Below are positions 2,913-38,644 of a stretch of 38,644 nt of DNA, piece by piece (the stretch's first letter is position 1; each line of letters begins with the position of its first letter). The notes below the pieces were generated by a model. The model saw only the letters and a list, made by a program, of their open reading frames with translations. It made no database searches and was not told the origin of the DNA. Source of the stretch: a virus; the IMG/VR virus record IMGVR_UViG_3300025645_000024, positions 1 through 38,644 of that record; one strand, written 5' to 3'. The position numbers and the translations under genes were made by a program.

Positions 2913-3348
2913 ACGTATAAAACAGCACCATAAGCACAGAGTACACCACCCCGGCTATCACACCCCGATATAACAGAGCGGTGTGCTTGGCCTTGTGGGG
3001 CGCCTCGGTAAACATAAAATGCGCCCTGATATGGCAGTACGCCGCCACGGAGCCCAGCACTTGCCTGAAAGGTATGTTAGGGTAGACCCCGAACTCCATT
3101 AAGTCCCCCGCAACGCCCAACCCGAGGAAGGAAGCCGACCAAGGGAAAGCCCAGTATAAATTATCTAACGTTTCCCCCACAAAACCGAAGAACACGCCAA
3201 CGATGAACCACTCCTGCGCGTCCATTTCCCGCCTAGACATTAACGCTCCCCTAGCTGCCCCGAACCATAGTAAAACTACGTAAGTGCATAAAAAAATCGT
3301 CGTTATAGATAAACCTAAAGAGGTTAACTCAGCTATCCCTTGTATCAT
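2905..3348 (-). CDS. Multi-pass membrane protein, end of lysis cassette
   Basis: 147 residues with three to four hydrophobic segments (about 12-34, 47-62, 70-86 and 126-146). It is the last gene of the 21-kb leftward operon and overlaps the preceding gene by 20 bases. Position after the muramidase and a second membrane protein suggests a holin or antiholin role, but the sequence itself does not prove it. Another possibility is a superinfection-exclusion membrane protein. Confidence 0.65.
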   Translation of the reverse strand: MIQGIAELTSLGLSITTIFLCTYVVLLWFGAARGALMSRREMDAQEWFIVGVFFGFVGETLDNLYWAFPWSASFLGLGVAGDLMEFGVYPNIPFRQVLGSVAAYCHIRAHFMFTEAPHKAKHTALLYRGVIAGVVYSVLMVLFYTFM

Positions 3349-3607
3349 CTTTTCGTCTCTCGCCTATTTTGTTTAAAACTTTTTCGGCCATGGCCTTATG
3401 TCCTTCTAAATGCCCTCTGATATTTGACACCTCTTTCAAAGTTTCCACGTATTCCACACGTAGCGCACTGAGCTCGGCCTGCGTGCGGGCGCTCTGCTCG
3501 GATTCTTTCTTATAAAAATGGTTAATTATTTTCCACAAAACAGCGATCGCAGCGACGAGCGCGCCTATTATCGCCGCGGAGTATTTTATTATCTCGGCGG
3601 CACCCAT
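3329..3607 (-). CDS. One-TM protein with coiled coil; candidate holin or inner-membrane spanin
   Basis: 92 residues. An N-terminal hydrophobic segment (about 8-30) is followed by Lys and His residues and a long charged coiled coil (about 34-85). This arrangement fits an i-spanin (Rz-like: membrane anchor then coiled coil) or an XhlA/DUF2746-like lysis accessory protein. No outer-membrane o-spanin with a lipobox is visible nearby, which argues against a classical Rz/Rz1 pair. The ATG overlaps the preceding stop as TAATG. Confidence 0.65.
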   Translation of the reverse strand: MGAAEIIKYSAAIIGALVAAIAVLWKIINHFYKKESEQSARTQAELSALRVEYVETLKEVSNIRGHLEGHKAMAEKVLNKIGERRKDDTRDS

Positions 3608-20293: not shown

Positions 20294-21856
20294 CTATTCC
20301 TCTTTAAATTTAACTGTCCACGCGTCCGCATAGCGGGGCACCACGTCAACGGCTTTGAATCTTGCCGTAATTCGGCCTATAACTTGGACCGTGTCGCCCG
20401 AGTGCGCCAGTTGAACACTTACGCCGGTCAGTGTGTACGTGCCTGCGTCTGCTACGATAACATAACTAGCGAAAAAGTCGACAGCCGCACCCGTTAGGGC
20501 GTAACTACCTGCGTCTGCCTGTGTTCTGCGTTGCGCCGTAAGCTGCACAGCCGCACCCGTTAGGGTGTAACTGCCTGCGTCTGCCTGTGTTCTGCGTTGC
20601 GCCGTAAGCTGCACAGCCGCACCCGTTAGGGCGTAACTGCCCGCGTCTGCTGTGATCGTTTCGCCCGGCCCGCCTATAACGAGGCCCACAGCCGCACCCG
20701 TTAGGGCGTAACTACCTGCGTCTGCCTGTGTTCTGCGTTGCGCCGTAAGCTGCACAGCCGCACCCGTTAGGGCGTAACTACCTGCGTCTGCCTGTGTTCT
20801 GCGTTGCGCCGTAAGCTGCACAGCCGCACCCGTTAGGGCGTAACTGCCTGCGTCTGCCGTAAGTACTTCGCCCGGCCCGTCAGGGTCCACCCACGCACTA
20901 GTAGTCCAAAATGTAGACGGGTCGGTCTGGTTGTTGTATTTAGCCAGTACGGTATCGTTATCGTCGTAAGTATTTGATAAAAAATTGTCACCTATCAGCC
21001 CGCCGTAAAAGTTGTTAGTCCCTTCCGTTAACGCTCCGATGAAAGTATTGTGTAGCGTGTTCGGCGTACCTACGTCGGTTATTATGCCTCCCTGCTGCAC
21101 CCCATCTCGGAACAGTTTGACGGTGCCCCCCGTTCTCGTTACGGTCAGCATTTGCCAAACTAAAGCAGAAGCGGCGCCCCTTGTATTGCCCGATGTGGCG
21201 TAGCCATCCCAATTGTATGATGAACCGCTTAGCCCTAAGTACGTCCGCCCCGCTTCAGGGCTCACCCAATTGCCGATCACACCTTGGAAGCCAGACAGGT
21301 CGTCGGGCCGTACCCACACGCTCTGAGTGAAATCACCTACCGGTAATATTGCAGCGCCTAAGTCGATACTAGAGCTCGCACCATTAAATCTTAGTGCGTT
21401 TCCTATATTTCCTGCCTCTGCCGTAACTGCGTTTGCTGTAATTGATGTTTGATTACCTGAAGAGTCGGTAGGCGTGGCACTTTCCATGTGCATTCTATTT
21501 ATTTCGCCGACATAAACGGCATTGCGGCCAAAAGCCGCACCGACTGCCGGCTGTGCCGTGGCGACCGTATCAGCTTCGATATAAACGGTACTAGCAATGT
21601 TAAGCGTGGGGCTTACACCCCAAACCTGTATGTCTGGCGCGCCACCAGTAACAAAATTCACCACTTCGATTGGTATTCGGGTCGTTTTAGTGCTGTCCGT
21701 GTAGCAACGTAAATTCCCGCCACCGTTTAAAATAGAGGTGGCACCACCGTCAACGGCAGCCGCAGGGAAGTTAGCAGCCGTAGCAAGCCACACAAAATTT
21801 GTTTGTGGGCTTGGAATTTTACCAATGTTAACAGTTATTGTGCAGCCGTAAGCCAT
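20294..21856 (-). CDS. LamG/concanavalin-A-like virion protein with seven C-terminal repeats
   Basis: 520 residues. Residues 1-115 form a beta-rich head of the DUF2341 type. Residues about 140-310 form a LamG-like jelly roll (ALRFNGASSSIDLG, FTQSVWVRPDD, KLFRDGVQQGG). Residues about 335-490 hold seven copies of an ADAGSYALTGAAV unit, mostly spaced 22 residues. LamG folds bind sugars. The protein is probably a head fibre or decoration exposed for attachment. Its place beside the terminase and not with the tail fibres suggests the head. The TAATG overlap links it to the upstream gene. Confidence 0.85.
   Translation of the reverse strand: MAYGCTITVNIGKIPSPQTNFVWLATAANFPAAAVDGGATSILNGGGNLRCYTDSTKTTRIPIEVVNFVTGGAPDIQVWGVSPTLNIASTVYIEADTVATAQPAVGAAFGRNAVYVGEINRMHMESATPTDSSGNQTSITANAVTAEAGNIGNALRFNGASSSIDLGAAILPVGDFTQSVWVRPDDLSGFQGVIGNWVSPEAGRTYLGLSGSSYNWDGYATSGNTRGAASALVWQMLTVTRTGGTVKLFRDGVQQGGIITDVGTPNTLHNTFIGALTEGTNNFYGGLIGDNFLSNTYDDNDTVLAKYNNQTDPSTFWTTSAWVDPDGPGEVLTADAGSYALTGAAVQLTAQRRTQADAGSYALTGAAVQLTAQRRTQADAGSYALTGAAVGLVIGGPGETITADAGSYALTGAAVQLTAQRRTQADAGSYTLTGAAVQLTAQRRTQADAGSYALTGAAVDFFASYVIVADAGTYTLTGVSVQLAHSGDTVQVIGRITARFKAVDVVPRYADAWTVKFKEE
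20481..20865 (-). repeat. 66-bp tandem repeats inside the LamG-protein gene
   Basis: Near-identical units begin at 20481, 20547, 20613, 20688, 20754 and 20820. Five keep most of a 66-base period and the unit at 20613 carries a longer divergent linker. A seventh, diverged copy lies near 20410-20450. Near-identity at the DNA level means recent expansion or ongoing homogenisation, and the copy number may be collapsed in short-read assemblies. Confidence 0.9.
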
Positions 21857-22325: not shown

Positions 22326-23579
22326 TTAATACCTTTTCATAGGAGGCATGATCGTCGGCCTAACGACGGGGAAATCCATAGCGATAAAGTACCCTCCTGC
22401 GTCGTTCGCGTGGTCGAATCCGCTCGTTTTGTCTGGCTCGCCGTTAGTCGCATACGCTTGCTGCTCTAGCCCTTTGGTGTAGTTCGGGCACAACTCCGTG
22501 TTGACTTTGTACTTACGTTCGCCCTTAGCGTTGCAAAATGCCGTGTTCATAGCCGTTATCCGCGACTTTACGCGTGGGTTTGCAGGGTTAACGTTTACGA
22601 TGAAACCCGCTTGTTCCAGTAGTGCGTGGTCGTTCCTGTCTGCGTCTAGAGTCTTGCGGTTTTTGCCGCTGGCGTCAGGGTATATCGTGACGGGGCGGTC
22701 AGGGTACCGGTCTTGTATCGCAACGATCATCGAGGGGGTGTCGTATAGGTCGTAAAACTCCCCGACGGCCCTCGGTTCTCCGTCGCGCAGTACGTGAACC
22801 ACGGCGGCCATGTGCTGCACGTTAAAATCCATACCGATCAATAACCCTTCGTACCCGTCCTCTGTGTCGTCGGTAGCGTTAAGTACTCGATTAAATTGAG
22901 GGTACACAGGGCCACTCGTCAGGTTGACGAATTGCCCGTTAAGATATGCGCTCACTAACTCCGCGCTGTATGATTCTAGTAAACTGTCGATGTAGTCGTC
23001 AGGTAGGTTGATTGCGTTCTCGTACGTGCTCGCTTGCACCATGCTGTATGATTCTTTCGGGTTATCGGCGAAACGGTCATGTACGAACCTAAAACCTTCG
23101 GGCGTTGTGGTTACGCCGACGCCGTTAACCACGCCGTCAATTTTGACACGTAGCCGAGCGATTATCTTATTCCATGCGTGTTTCGCCTTGGCGGGGTCTA
23201 GTGTGTCTATTTCATCGACTAAAGACCGAGCCACTTTGTAGCCGATAATGCCCCCGGGTTTATCCATTGAGCGGCAGATAATCTTCCCATACCAGAACCC
23301 GTTCCGGTAGATGTCAACCTCTTTATTGCTCACATGCACGTCGACGGTGAACCCTAGATACTCGGCCGCCTCTTCGAATGTTGGGTAAAATATGTCTCGT
23401 ATGGCTGCGTATGTTGGCCCGTAGTACGCTTGTGCATACCCCGGTTGCCTCGCGGCGAATAGGAGTAGGTCGAGGCAGCCTACGAAGGTTTTACCACTCC
23501 CGAAGCCGCCCACGAACGCCCTAAATTTAGTGTTAAGCCCGTTTAAAAAAACGTTTTGTGGGGCACTAAGGCTTGGCAT
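22326..23579 (-). CDS. terL: Terminase large subunit
   Basis: 417 residues. ATPase: Walker A GGFGSGKT (24-31), Walker B LVDEID (D122, E123) and a coupling motif TTTPEG (157-162). Nuclease: MDFN (D251), PDASG (D302) and a C-terminal FDHANDA acidic site. It packages DNA into the prohead. Its ATG lies 14 bases before the end of the small subunit gene. Confidence 0.96.
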   Translation of the reverse strand: MPSLSAPQNVFLNGLNTKFRAFVGGFGSGKTFVGCLDLLLFAARQPGYAQAYYGPTYAAIRDIFYPTFEEAAEYLGFTVDVHVSNKEVDIYRNGFWYGKIICRSMDKPGGIIGYKVARSLVDEIDTLDPAKAKHAWNKIIARLRVKIDGVVNGVGVTTTPEGFRFVHDRFADNPKESYSMVQASTYENAINLPDDYIDSLLESYSAELVSAYLNGQFVNLTSGPVYPQFNRVLNATDDTEDGYEGLLIGMDFNVQHMAAVVHVLRDGEPRAVGEFYDLYDTPSMIVAIQDRYPDRPVTIYPDASGKNRKTLDADRNDHALLEQAGFIVNVNPANPRVKSRITAMNTAFCNAKGERKYKVNTELCPNYTKGLEQQAYATNGEPDKTSGFDHANDAGGYFIAMDFPVVRPTIMPPMKRY

Positions 23580-24132
23580 TTGTCACCTGCACTTCGGCTT
23601 TTGCCTCTGCCACTTCGAATACTATGTTAAGCGGTTGTACTTCGCTTTTGTGGTGTTGTGCTTCTTTGTCCCACGCCTTAACGGCGACGTGTCGCCCTAA
23701 CAGCTCTAAGTTTCTCGCTTTATCGGGCCACTTGATCTTCTCGACTAGTTGTATGAGGCGTTCGGGGTCATCCGCAGCCCGCACCAGCTTACCAAAATCT
23801 AGTCCGCTGATCGAAGTGCGCCACGGTTTAGGCCAGCGCTTAACGGGGAGTAAAACCCCGTTGTCGTCCATGATGTCGGCAATGTCTAGTTGGTCTATCT
23901 CTACAACACGGCGCAGAACGTAGTCAGCGTCGATTTTTAGGCGTTTATTCCTCGCGGCAATGGCGTAGGCCATATATTGCCCTACGGCGGGGCAGGTGGC
24001 GTTCTCAGAGCCTCGCTGCCTGCATTGGTCATCCGGGTATCCCGCCTCTCTGGCGGCCCTCGACATGTTCCAATGCGTTATATAATGATCAGCCCATAGT
24101 TTCTTCTGATCGGTAAGTCTTGCGCCTGCCAT
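23566..24132 (-). CDS. terS: Terminase small subunit
   Basis: 188 residues from the ATG at 24132, chosen because GAGGTT lies nine bases upstream. A longer GTG-started reading to 24219 is possible but has no better signal. The N-terminus carries an HTH-like DNA-binding part (WNMSRAAREAGYPDDQ, about 20-35), then helical oligomerisation segments and a Lys/Glu C-terminus. It recognises the packaging site and is the first gene of the late operon. Confidence 0.88.
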   Translation of the reverse strand: MAGARLTDQKKLWADHYITHWNMSRAAREAGYPDDQCRQRGSENATCPAVGQYMAYAIAARNKRLKIDADYVLRRVVEIDQLDIADIMDDNGVLLPVKRWPKPWRTSISGLDFGKLVRAADDPERLIQLVEKIKWPDKARNLELLGRHVAVKAWDKEAQHHKSEVQPLNIVFEVAEAKAEVQVTNAKP

Positions 24133-24325
24133 GCCTCGAACCTCGATAAATGGTAACTGAGCCACCGGCTCTTCAACGTAGTGTACACCACGATCAAAAG
24201 GACCGCAACGGCGACGCACTAGCGCATATAACTAAAAGGCATAAGAGAGCCGCGCTTATAACCGTAACGCTTTGTAACACTACGTAACGTTTCGCCTAAT
24301 CTTCTACAGGCCCCGCCGGTCGTAC

Positions 24326-24451
24326 GTTGTAACGTTGTAACGCTTAAAAGTGCTATATGTTATATATTATATGCTTATATACCCCCCTATATTTCTTTTA
24401 TTATTATTATTATATAGTTTAAAGGTAAAAGAAGCGTTACAACGTTACAAC
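24326..24451. repeat. 20-bp perfect inverted repeat flanking the AT-rich core
   Basis: GTTGTAACGTTGTAACGCTT at 24326-24345 is the exact reverse complement of 24432-24451. Each arm contains two GTAACG units in tandem. Further copies of the unit lie outward at 24264-24290 and 24485-24514. The 86 bases between the arms are almost entirely A and T. Confidence 0.9.
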
Positions 24452-24606
24452 CCACGCCACCACTGGCCCGCAGAGAATCCGAGAAGCGTTACAGTAACGT
24501 TACAGAAGCGTTACACCCCACAACGGCTATAACAGAGCGCCTGATATGCGTTTTAGTTATAAGCATAGTAGAGCGCCTGATAGAACGAAACAATATAAGG
24601 CAGGGT

Positions 24607-24635
24607 TTGACATCGGGGGAGTCGGCGTTTATAGT
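24607..24635 (+). promoter_or_regulatory. Strong sigma70-type promoter for the rightward replication operon
   Basis: TTGACA (24607-24612), a 17-base spacer and TATAGT (24630-24635), 39 bases before the first gene. A 13-base direct repeat, AGAGCGCCTGATA, at 24534-24546 and 24570-24582 (36 bases apart) lies just upstream and may bind a regulator. Confidence 0.8.
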
Positions 24636-24674
24636 TATGTCTGTTTTAACGATTATAACGGCTAAGGGCGCGAA

Positions 24675-25379: not shown

Positions 25380-25471
25380 TGAAAGTTCTACTAGTAGGCT
25401 GCCCACTTGACGGGCAACGTGTAGGTGCGACGCATATCGCCACCGCACGGGAGATACTAAGCCATGAATAA
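25379..25471 (+). CDS. Very small hypothetical protein
   Basis: 30 residues (MKVLLVGCPLDG start). Its ATG overlaps the previous stop as TAATG, and its last eight bases overlap the next ATG. There is no strong ribosome site, so expression would rely on coupling. It may serve mainly as a translational bridge. Confidence 0.45.
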   Translation: MKVLLVGCPLDGQRVGATHIATAREILSHE

Positions 25472-25652
25472 CGAAGATCCACTACTAAAAACCGCAGAGG
25501 TACAAGCGCTGTTAAACGTAGGCCGCGACTCCGTGCTGAAGCTTATCGAAGACGGCAAACTAAGAGCGACTAAGCTCGGCCCTAAAACAATAAGAATATT
25601 TAAAAGTAGCGTTGACGCGCTCATAGAAGAAGGCATAACAAATGATAAATAA
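25464..25652 (+). CDS. Small MerR/excisionase-type helix-turn-helix protein
   Basis: 62 residues matching the HTH_17 layout: LKTAEVQALLNVGRDSVLKL (residues 8-27) as a winged-helix start, then IEDGKLRATKLGPKTIRIF and a C-terminal helix. Such proteins bind DNA as excisionases or small regulators. No integrase is present, so a regulator or origin-binding role next to the primase is more likely. It overlaps the primase gene by 11 bases. Confidence 0.8.
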   Translation: MNNEDPLLKTAEVQALLNVGRDSVLKLIEDGKLRATKLGPKTIRIFKSSVDALIEEGITNDK

Positions 25653-28074
25653 CTTAGCCGTACAACTACGCGCGGCCGGGTTAGGTGTTTTCCCTTGTAG
25701 TGCGAACAAAGCCCCGGCAGTACCGAAGGGCGTAGCATGGCAACAAATAGCCCTAGGCGATCCGCAGAGTATTAACTGGCCTAGCGGTCTGGTCGGTTTA
25801 CCGATCCCCGCCGGCGTGGCTGTTATCGATCTCGATACATACAAAGGCGTAACCCGTGAACACGTAGAAGCCGCAATAGGGGCGACCCTCCAATGGGACG
25901 CAGCACTGATACAGACCACGCAAAACGGCGGCCAGCATTATGCGTTCCGCACCACATGGCCCGTCATTCAGGGCACTAACATAAAAGTAGAAGGCTTCGA
26001 CACAAGGGTGGCCGGTAAAGGCTATATTTGTTCTGGTGACGGCTACACTTCTGTAGGTTTTGGCCCTTATGCCCTGGCGCACCCTTCCGGGTTGCCTGCA
26101 CTACCTGACGCTTGCCGGGCCGTATTGGAGCATAAACCGGCCGCCCCTACTGAACGGGCAGTACTCCCTGAAGGCGACAAAGACGTAGAAACTATACGCC
26201 AAGCGCTGCAACATTTAGACCCGGGCTGTAGCCGTACGGAATGGCTTCGCGTTGGTCTGGCACTACGCCACCAATTCCACGACGACGAGGCGACAGGCCT
26301 CAGTCTGTTCGACGCTTGGAGTAGCGGACAGCTATCAGGCAAAGACGCACCCGAAAACTACAGCGCCGAAACGATGGATCAACAGTGGGGCAGTTTTAAA
26401 GCGGAAGGCGGCGTGACTATTGCGACGTTATTCTACTCGGCCATATCGGCAGGCTGGACACCACCGGCAGGCGTTGACACCTCGGCAGCATTCGGCGGGA
26501 CCGCAGCATTCGGCGGGACCGCAGCAACGGCGGATCAATTCGATCAACTTGTCGACGACATAACCGAGAACGGCGGCAACCCAAAAAGCACAAACACCCT
26601 GATCACGGCCATACAGGCGGTACAGTGTAACGAGCTTCAGCGGGGGATCTTGCTGGCGACACTTCACCGCGAACTTAAAGAAAACGGCCTGTTAACTAAG
26701 GACGTTAGAAAACTGCTAGAAGGTAAGAAGCCGCCACGCCCACAAGGCGAGTACGGCCAAAACCACACCGAAAACGCTACCGTATTTATAGACACGCACT
26801 ACCCTAACGGGACGATCTGCCGTAGTCAGCAAGTATGGTACGTGTTCAACGGTCAAGCATGGGAAGCGAAAGACGACAGCGACATAAAACACGCCGTAGC
26901 GATCGCACTGGCCCCAAGTATGCCGCAGCACGCCACCGTGTCGGGTACGTACTCAATGATGGAAGCACTAGCGGGCAACCCTGGGAAGAAGATCGGCGAC
27001 ACACCGAAAGGCATAGTGTTAACCCAAAACGGGGCGCTCGACCTGAACACCGGCCGACTAACCGGACACCATAAAGATTATTTTACTACTAACATTTTGC
27101 CGTATAACTATAACATTCAAGCGCGGAGCACTACCTGGGGCGTTTTTCTTGATCAGGTCTTTGAAGGAGACGAAGAACGTATCGAATTACTACAGGAATG
27201 GTTCGGGTACATGATGTCGACTAGCTACGATTATCAAAAAGTTATGCTATTGCTAGGCCCTAAGCGTTGTGGTAAAGGCACGCTCGGGCAGATATTGAAG
27301 TTATTAGTAGGCCGCCAAAACTACAGCGGCGGCACACTGACAAGCTTCGCGGACGACGCCTTCATTGAAAGCCTACAGACAAAGACCGTTATGTTTGTCG
27401 GTGACGCGGCGAAAAACATACCGCGCGGCGTGGTTGACTATGTGACCGAACGCATAAAAGGTATCAGCGGGTGCGACGACCAGACGTTCCGCCGTAAATA
27501 TAAGTCTACGCTGTCCGAGCAGATACCGACACGCATAACGATAGCAAGCAACCACGTCCCACGCCTTTTCGACGACTCGGGTGCACTGGCTTCGCGTTTA
27601 CTCGTTATGCCTATGAACGTGTCCTGGTACGGCCGCGAAGATCCTACACTGTTCGGCCGCTTGGCTAAGGACATAGAGGGGATCGCTATTTGGGCGCTGC
27701 AAGGGTTGGCCCGTTTAAACCAGAACGGCCGCTTTACCATACCGGCAGCAAGTCAAGCCGAAACGGATTACATTAGCGAAGCATATAGCCCGCTTCGAAT
27801 GTTCTTAGACTCTGCGTGTATCATGGGCGGCGCCGACTTCGTAAGCGCCCAAGACGTATACGCAACGTATAAAGCGTGGGCCGTGCTAAACCAAGAGGAT
27901 CACATACTGCCGCGCCGCACATTTATCGGCTCATTTAAAGACGTAACGCGGGGCACGGGGATCTCCTACGGACCGCACAGAGTAAACGGCGGGTCGCCGG
28001 TGCGAGGATTTAAAGGCGTAATTCTGCGCGAGCTCGGCCAAGGCGGCAGCATACCCCTAACGGCTGTAAAATAA
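25642..28074 (+). CDS. Primase-polymerase/SF3 (D5-like) helicase fusion
   Basis: 810 residues. The N-terminal AEP-type bifunctional primase/polymerase domain shows VIDLDTYKG (D63, D65) and GGQHYAF (H99). A PriCT-2-like helical part follows (about 190-270). A low-complexity linker contains the GGTAAF duplication. The C-terminal SF3 helicase has Walker A GPKRCGKGT (539-547), Walker B VMFVGDA (D588) and an IASNHVPR motif near 634. It would prime and unwind DNA at the phage origin just upstream. It lies with an HTH protein before it and a DEDDh exonuclease after it. Confidence 0.94.
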   Translation: MINNLAVQLRAAGLGVFPCSANKAPAVPKGVAWQQIALGDPQSINWPSGLVGLPIPAGVAVIDLDTYKGVTREHVEAAIGATLQWDAALIQTTQNGGQHYAFRTTWPVIQGTNIKVEGFDTRVAGKGYICSGDGYTSVGFGPYALAHPSGLPALPDACRAVLEHKPAAPTERAVLPEGDKDVETIRQALQHLDPGCSRTEWLRVGLALRHQFHDDEATGLSLFDAWSSGQLSGKDAPENYSAETMDQQWGSFKAEGGVTIATLFYSAISAGWTPPAGVDTSAAFGGTAAFGGTAATADQFDQLVDDITENGGNPKSTNTLITAIQAVQCNELQRGILLATLHRELKENGLLTKDVRKLLEGKKPPRPQGEYGQNHTENATVFIDTHYPNGTICRSQQVWYVFNGQAWEAKDDSDIKHAVAIALAPSMPQHATVSGTYSMMEALAGNPGKKIGDTPKGIVLTQNGALDLNTGRLTGHHKDYFTTNILPYNYNIQARSTTWGVFLDQVFEGDEERIELLQEWFGYMMSTSYDYQKVMLLLGPKRCGKGTLGQILKLLVGRQNYSGGTLTSFADDAFIESLQTKTVMFVGDAAKNIPRGVVDYVTERIKGISGCDDQTFRRKYKSTLSEQIPTRITIASNHVPRLFDDSGALASRLLVMPMNVSWYGREDPTLFGRLAKDIEGIAIWALQGLARLNQNGRFTIPAASQAETDYISEAYSPLRMFLDSACIMGGADFVSAQDVYATYKAWAVLNQEDHILPRRTFIGSFKDVTRGTGISYGPHRVNGGSPVRGFKGVILRELGQGGSIPLTAVK
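26488..26523 (+). repeat. 18-bp tandem duplication in the primase-helicase linker
   Basis: Two perfect 18-base copies (26488-26505 and 26506-26523) encode a repeated AFGGTA unit between the primase and helicase halves. In-frame and probably neutral for folding. Confidence 0.9.
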
Positions 28075-38002: not shown

Positions 38003-38644
38003 ATGATTTTCGACGACAAACATGTAAAAATTCACGGCGCATTTATCGTATGGGATGGCATTACACGCCCGGAGCAAGGACACGACGGTAAGCCTAAGTA
38101 CAGTTTAAAAGTAGTAGTTAACCCGAACAACCCGGACCTCGCCGACATGAATAACTTAGCTAACGCTACGCTACAAACTTCTAAGTTTAGAGGCCAACTA
38201 CCGGCGGGCGGTCGTATGCCTATCGGACAAGCGCGTCAAGACGAGTTTAACGGCATGTACCCGGGTTGGGTAGTACTAGGCTGTAACACTCAACGCTTAC
38301 CGGACGTTTACGACGAGAACGGCGGCAAATTGGACCCTATGCAATACGGCCAAATGCTATACGGCGCGCAGCAAGTAGACATATTAGTCCATTGTTACGA
38401 GTACGACGCAAAAGGCAACAAAGGTATAGCGACCGGGTTAGACGCTTTCAGTATTATCGCAAGTGCTAACGCAGTGCCGCAAAACTTCGGCGGCGCAGGC
38501 ATTAACACTCAGGGCGCATTCGGTCCGGGGTCGTCTCAAGGTCAGCAACCGGCACCACAAGGCGGCTATGCTCCCCAAGGTCAGCAACCGGCACCACAAG
38601 GCGGCTATGCTCCCCAAGGTCAGCAACCGGCACCACAAGGCGGC
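38003..38644 (+). CDS. ssDNA-binding protein (DUF2815-like) with repetitive tail, 3' end at window start
   Basis: 214 codons to the edge, continuing at 1-138. The first 170 residues (MIFDDKHVKIHGAFIVWDGI start, KYSLKVVVN and DILVHCYEYDA strands) look like an OB-fold of the DUF2815/T7 gp2.5-like group. From about residue 172 the sequence is Gly/Gln/Pro-rich, then 13-residue repeats (APQGQQPAPQGGY). It coats single-stranded DNA during replication and recombination with the neighbouring nuclease and polymerase. Confidence 0.88.
   Translation, partial: MIFDDKHVKIHGAFIVWDGITRPEQGHDGKPKYSLKVVVNPNNPDLADMNNLANATLQTSKFRGQLPAGGRMPIGQARQDEFNGMYPGWVVLGCNTQRLPDVYDENGGKLDPMQYGQMLYGAQQVDILVHCYEYDAKGNKGIATGLDAFSIIASANAVPQNFGGAGINTQGAFGPGSSQGQQPAPQGGYAPQGQQPAPQGGYAPQGQQPAPQGG
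38537..38644 (+). repeat. 39-bp in-frame tandem repeat, right end
   Basis: Two complete units (38537-38575 and 38576-38614) and 30 bases of a third (38615-38644). The last 69 bases equal bases 1-69. The repeat is in the SSB tail and its exact copy number cannot be read from this assembly. Confidence 0.9.

Follow-up and report, generated by a model that had tools for sequence, protein, structure and literature searches.

Organization of the gap upstream of the primase-helicase operon

The window, i.e. the whole 38,644-nt stretch of viral DNA analysed here, contains an intergenic gap of 542 nt (24133-24674). The small terminase gene lies on its left. On its right is a rightward operon consisting of small ORFs followed by the HTH_17 gene (25464-25652) and the primase-helicase gene (25642-28074), with about 1.1 kb between the candidate origin and the primase gene downstream of it. 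The closest relative is L003, whose primase is 85% identical. The features of the region are as follows.

23566-24132, minus strand: small terminase subunit gene, the left border of the gap
24224-24263, plus strand: left copy of the outer 40-nt mirror element (29/40; its TTTTAGTTATA block is absent in L003)
24261-24291, plus strand: left distal GTAACG units (24264, 24284), conserved less well
24326-24345, plus strand: left inner iteron arm GTTGTAACGTTGTAACGCTT, two TGTAACG units with an 8-nt period, identical in L003
24346-24431, no strand: AT-rich core of 86 nt, 80% AT (19.8% GC), the presumed melting region
24432-24451, minus strand: right inner iteron arm AAGCGTTACAACGTTACAAC, the exact inverse of the left arm
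24485-24515, minus strand: right distal iteron array, three TGTAACG units with palindromic overlap
24525-24564, minus strand: right copy of the outer 40-nt mirror element (29/40 versus the left copy)
24607-24635, plus strand: sigma-70 promoter TTGACA-17-TATAGT (11/12), pointing toward the HTH/primase operon and kept in L003
25464-25652, plus strand: 62-aa HTH_17/excisionase-type protein
25642-28074, plus strand: P4-family primase-helicase with Prim-Pol, PriCT_2 and D5_N domains, the proposed initiator
27727-28041, plus strand: C-terminal winged-helix region of the primase-helicase, the proposed iteron reader (predicted model)

A direct sequence check gave an exact match between the 20-nt arm GTTGTAACGTTGTAACGCTT and its reverse complement, 86 nt apart, and the coordinates of the perfect inverted repeat and the 86-base AT-rich core described in an earlier note on this DNA proved to be exact. 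The inverted arms reach 25 nt (92%) once mismatches are allowed. They are the sole exact inverted repeat of at least 12 nt with a spacing of 50-150 nt in the window, and no 86-mers in the window are richer in AT than those starting at 24344-24345, at the edge of the core or just within it. The GTAACG units noted earlier are also dense, with 10 copies in the gap versus a mean of 0.88 and a maximum of 4 in 300 shuffles; TGTAACG occurs seven times (shuffled mean 0.17, maximum 2). As a scale for such counts, when the same 7-mer detector was applied to 80 terminase-fetched loci, the median of the best counts was 4, and 4 of the 80 loci reached 7 or more. The longest exact inverted repeat in the gap is 20 nt (shuffled mean 8.7, maximum 11). 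The outer mirror scores 29/40 exactly as the note had it, compared to a best score of 24/40 in 25 shuffles, and its TTTTAGTTATA block has one exact copy on each side of the gap and no other exact copy in the window. By these shuffles, chance accounts for neither the arms nor the outer mirror nor the high density of GTAACG.

Several other signals were sought. The window contains no second iteron cluster, its six further TGTAACG copies being scattered, and the frequency of ATAAGAGAGCG, considered as a second regulatory motif, was not above chance. No known RNA family was found, and no exact-pattern match to the IHF or DnaA-box consensus was present in the gap. The GC-skew switch that had been proposed as a check did not appear either; neither raw skew nor skew at fourfold sites changes sign at the site, although skew has little power as a test in phages. 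Replication from a candidate origin here may run in both directions, as the note suggested, or in one.

TATAAC words are over-represented in the gap, which has 6 of the window's 25 copies, including one inside the core. Those at 24227, 24257, 24528, 24556 and 24654 are partly kept in L003, and the gap words are a possible operator for the HTH protein. A short hairpin, GAGCC-acc-GGCTC, at 24159-24171 before the small terminase gene is also kept in L003 and is possibly a terminator or a packaging signal. Elsewhere in the window, a 66-nt tandem repeat of 5.6 copies (20481-20879) lies within a gene of the leftward cluster and encodes repeated 'TADAGSYALTGAAVQL' segments. A gene for an Enc34-type ssDNA-binding protein runs off the end of the window (38003-38644) and seems to resume at 1-138, and the 39-nt repeat PQGQQPAPQGGYA is present at both ends. 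The genome is therefore probably circular or circularly permuted, cut within the repeat.

Conservation of the arms and core in related phages

Comparison with L003 showed near letter-for-letter agreement in the promoter, the two arms, the right edge of the core and the first part of the GC-rich spacer, with the right arm and right core edge forming a long, almost invariant block. The outer mirror is real in the window yet is not the conserved part, because the TTTTAGTTATA blocks are missing from L003. On this ground, the idea that function centers on the outer TTTTAGTTATA mirror was rejected. The absence also argues against the suggestion that the mirrored elements are middle or late promoters, as does the position of the conserved sigma-70 promoter outside them. 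Outer mirrors in other relatives are built of iterons, scoring 34/40 in L199 and 40/40 in L202, where the perfect mirror (3054-3093 and 3318-3357) surrounds the candidate origin core.

Arms of TGTAACG units that enclose an AT-rich core and precede HTH and primase genes were also found in L004/L208 (primase 46% identical) and in the cultured Alteromonas phages R9Y1 and R9Y2 (47%). In a wider set of relatives drawn from an alignment search, the layout of arms, core, 8-nt iteron period and HTH plus primase genes recurs down to about 40% primase identity. The arms are 83-105 nt apart with an AT minimum between them in 11 genomes, including the window, and in all 11 the element is upstream of the HTH and primase genes. 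The right inner pair, where found, has an 8-nt period, except for a period of 10 in L202. The HTH_17 gene always adjoined the primase gene in the relatives examined, and a TTGAC-n-TAnnnT promoter was present downstream of the element in 11 of 15 genomes. Thus, the inverted arms, on whose conservation the earlier note had made its proposal depend, are present in related genomes.

The iteron word itself changes among relatives. It is TGTAACA in L194 and L204, TGTGACG in L195, TGTGACA in L196, TGTTGCG in L202, and TGTAGTC in L203 and Aeromonas phage AeroV_348, the last type occurring as TGTAGTC/T. In L197 and L198 the AT-rich gap is present and clear iterons are absent.

The iteron word follows the C-terminus of the primase-helicase

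The primase-helicase matches the P4-family primase model TIGR01613 at 156 bits (cut-off 108.7), and the SaPI5 primase-helicase (7ola) is a homologue by sequence (E 1.4e-24) that was also retrieved by fold. The C-terminal 105 residues were modelled as a winged helix with a pLDDT of 77.6, residues 6-19 being under 50. This model aligned with the phage P4 origin-binding domain (1ka8) over 80 residues at 2.5 A (Z 9.5), and its best fold matches, among them the RFX1 DBD (Z 9.9), ASFV PrimPol and 1ka8, were tied. The C-terminus is thus predicted to carry a P4-type origin-binding winged-helix fold, tied with those of RFX and ASFV PrimPol.

We compared pairwise iteron distance with pairwise protein distance using Mantel tests, with iteron words assigned by the analyst and kinship ignored. 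The primase C-terminal segment (696-797) gave a rho of 0.79 (p about 0.0015, n=10) or 0.82 (n=12). The corresponding values were 0.56 and 0.74 for the helicase part, -0.14 and 0.01 for the Prim-Pol N-terminus, and 0.00 for the HTH protein. The C-terminal signal leans on few genomes, falling to 0.56 (p 0.06) without L203 and to 0.12 when L202 was removed as well. L203 is a mosaic; its N-terminus is 60% identical to that of the window, its helicase and C-terminus are about 25% identical, and its iteron is TGTAGTC. L203 has its C-terminal half in common with Vibrio phage 97.13 (L243) and Oceanospirillum phage PD0307 (L242), both of which likewise have a TGTAG-type word. L239 and L240 are further mosaics with N-termini 52-54% identical to the window, unrelated C-terminal halves and the iteron GTGCCCC. 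L208 and L211 share the same iteron despite very different HTH proteins. Two enterobacterial phages with a similar C-terminus, 9NA and Bas82, had no clear iteron cluster near the primase.

Judging from these natural mosaics, the choice of iteron would be set by the primase C-terminus. The earlier note had named either the 62-residue HTH protein or the primase-helicase as the binder. Divergence of the HTH protein does not track the iteron and this candidate is disfavored as the iteron reader, whereas the primase-helicase is favored by both the covariation and the predicted fold.

A 303-aa gene lies beside the AT-rich gap in L197 (877-1785) and L198 (from 743). By eye, its product looks like a tandem duplication of the primase C-terminal module, as though the proposed origin-binding domain had split off into a protein of its own. 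A doubled module in this position (L197) would fit a DNA-binding role of the module.

The same word beside other primases

A blind scan was carried out with the pattern TGTAACG-N70-100-GTTACANCGTTACA, with the reversed pattern as a control. The scan returned 69 viral stretches, representing 44 distinct cores, versus 3 for the control, and 64 cores were at least 10 GC points below their own locus. A D5/Prim-Pol primase was present in 9 of the 69 stretches, within 1.5 kb in 7 of the 9. Only 6 of 49 records had a D5_N match, and this low number led to the finding that a phrog_35358 primase-helicase reading frame lies 54-190 nt away in 38 of the 69 stretches (L121, 9880-10250, and 37 other viral loci). 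Eleven genome matches, several of them in Cyanobium/Synechococcus, are also beside phrog_35358 genes. Among the origin-like sites in bacterial genomes (L161, L165, L166, L180, L181, L183, L184, L188, L189 and others) are some at prophage- or satellite-like places of Cyanobium/Synechococcus. In the cultured Synechococcus phage S-H1, a phrog_35358-type primase is followed by what appears by eye to be a similar layout with the word CTAACGG. The stretch read from a Bordetella relative contained no such layout. No homology between the D5 and phrog_35358 initiators was detected with either the whole protein or the C-terminus.

One tentative interpretation, which we regard as somewhat less probable than its negation, is that TGTAACG in inverted sets round an AT-rich core is an origin code for at least two initiator families, D5/Prim-Pol and phrog_35358, without detectable homology. 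If true, origin modules or reading domains would be exchanged, or held by shared constraint, across unrelated machineries while the words drift within a family. The shared word may reflect old common descent, exchange, convergence or, in part, selection by the pattern. At L118 (5850-6070), a short AT-rich stretch next to an AAA_25 (RepA-like) gene is surrounded by a dozen TGTAACG units facing both ways, which may mark a third type of initiator using this word.

A model for initiation and alternative explanations

The proposal of the earlier note that this region is a candidate origin is backed by the conserved layout, the covariation between iteron and C-terminal domain and the predicted P4-type fold. 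We consider it highly likely that the gap is a replication origin read by the primase-helicase C-terminus on TGTAACG iterons, with melting of the core and loading of the helicase. This reading rests on the anatomy of the sequence and its conservation, on the way the iteron tracks with the C-terminus, and on the predicted fold match.

By analogy with Cch2, SaPI Rep and P4 alpha, we infer the steps by which replication would start at the gap. The C-terminal winged helix of the primase-helicase would bind the TGTAACG iterons on either side of the core, and initiator oligomers, probably hexamers, would form on the two inverted arms and melt the core. These oligomers would then load onto the single strands, the helicase domain would unwind the DNA, and the Prim-Pol domain would supply the A-family polymerase of the phage with primers. 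Through the distal iterons beside the sigma-70 promoter, the initiator probably also regulates its own operon, although this autoregulation is a guess.

The gap could instead be a divergent transcription control centre, in which the repeats are operators, e.g. for the 62-aa HTH protein, governing the terminase and replication operons, and the core is promoter DNA. The position of the site between divergent operons, the near-consensus sigma-70 promoter beside the distal iterons with similar promoters in most relatives, the constant adjacency of the HTH_17 and primase genes and the TATAAC enrichment would all fit. However, the iteron tracks the primase C-terminus rather than the HTH protein, as also seen in the single iteron shared by L208 and L211. 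Moreover, the promoter is outside the arms, relatives have kept the 83-105-nt core between inverted arms, and the same DNA pattern adjoins genes of another primase family. We therefore consider a control centre improbable.

Still less probable, and to a similar degree, are two other kinds of site. A pac/cos site, where the small terminase would bind and packaging begin, would be in keeping with the small terminase gene that borders the gap and with the terminase genes nearby in the R9Y and AeroV phages. Against this, the iteron word follows the primase C-terminus, most blind-scan matches adjoin a primase gene, and of 80 loci retrieved via the large terminase, just 1 had even a relaxed form of the pattern. 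Centres for partition, recombination or other protein binding unrelated to an origin are generally known to carry inverted repeats and flanking arrays as well, but no ParA/ParB, integrase or resolvase was recognized among the scanned window proteins, and the AT-rich core and the link to a primase favor an origin.

Comparison with known replication systems

The SaPI origin reportedly has iterons that flank an AT-rich region. The likeness between the window and SaPIs (SaPI5 primase-helicase 7ola/7om0; SaPIbov1 ori) extends from a homologous D5-type primase-helicase to iterons round an AT-rich region. The SaPI origin is directly downstream of rep, whereas that proposed here is upstream of the HTH-primase operon. 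SaPIs are also satellites, whereas the window belongs to a phage that encodes both a small and a large terminase, and the window has other iteron words plus an extra distal array by the promoter.

Phage P4 shares with the window a P4-family primase-helicase (TIGR01613), and the C-terminus of the latter is predicted to have the P4 origin-binding fold (1ka8). P4 also requires a distant iteron-bearing site, crr, and its iteron sequence is other than TGTAACG; a crr-like second cluster is absent from the window.

In SaPIs the C-terminal domain reads the iterons (PMC7581432). The C-terminal domain of Cch2, a D5-type helicase of SCCmec, likewise binds short iterons, with AAGTG being required for unwinding, and the Cch2 system has a separate primase, only three iterons and a putative origin downstream of its own gene (PMC7581432). 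Iterons of the phages described here often begin with AAGYG (AAGCG in the window; AAGTG in L194, L196 and L199), a 5-nt resemblance that may be due to chance. Unlike Cch2, the window initiator has its own Prim-Pol domain and the candidate origin is upstream of the gene.

The closest cultured likeness is found in Alteromonas phages vB_AmaS-R9Y1/2/3, which have a similar gene order and the same TGTAACG layout. The main text of the paper on these phages makes no mention of a replication origin or iterons (PMC9430817), and a literature search on the iteron word yielded no relevant paper among the matches listed. With an initiator named and a candidate origin located in a line that includes the R9Y phages, origin function is directly testable, and the blind pattern scan suggests that origins in uncultured phages can be found from DNA alone. 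The gap is very probably a P4/SaPI-type origin, i.e. one of an ordinary known kind, in a little-studied phage line.
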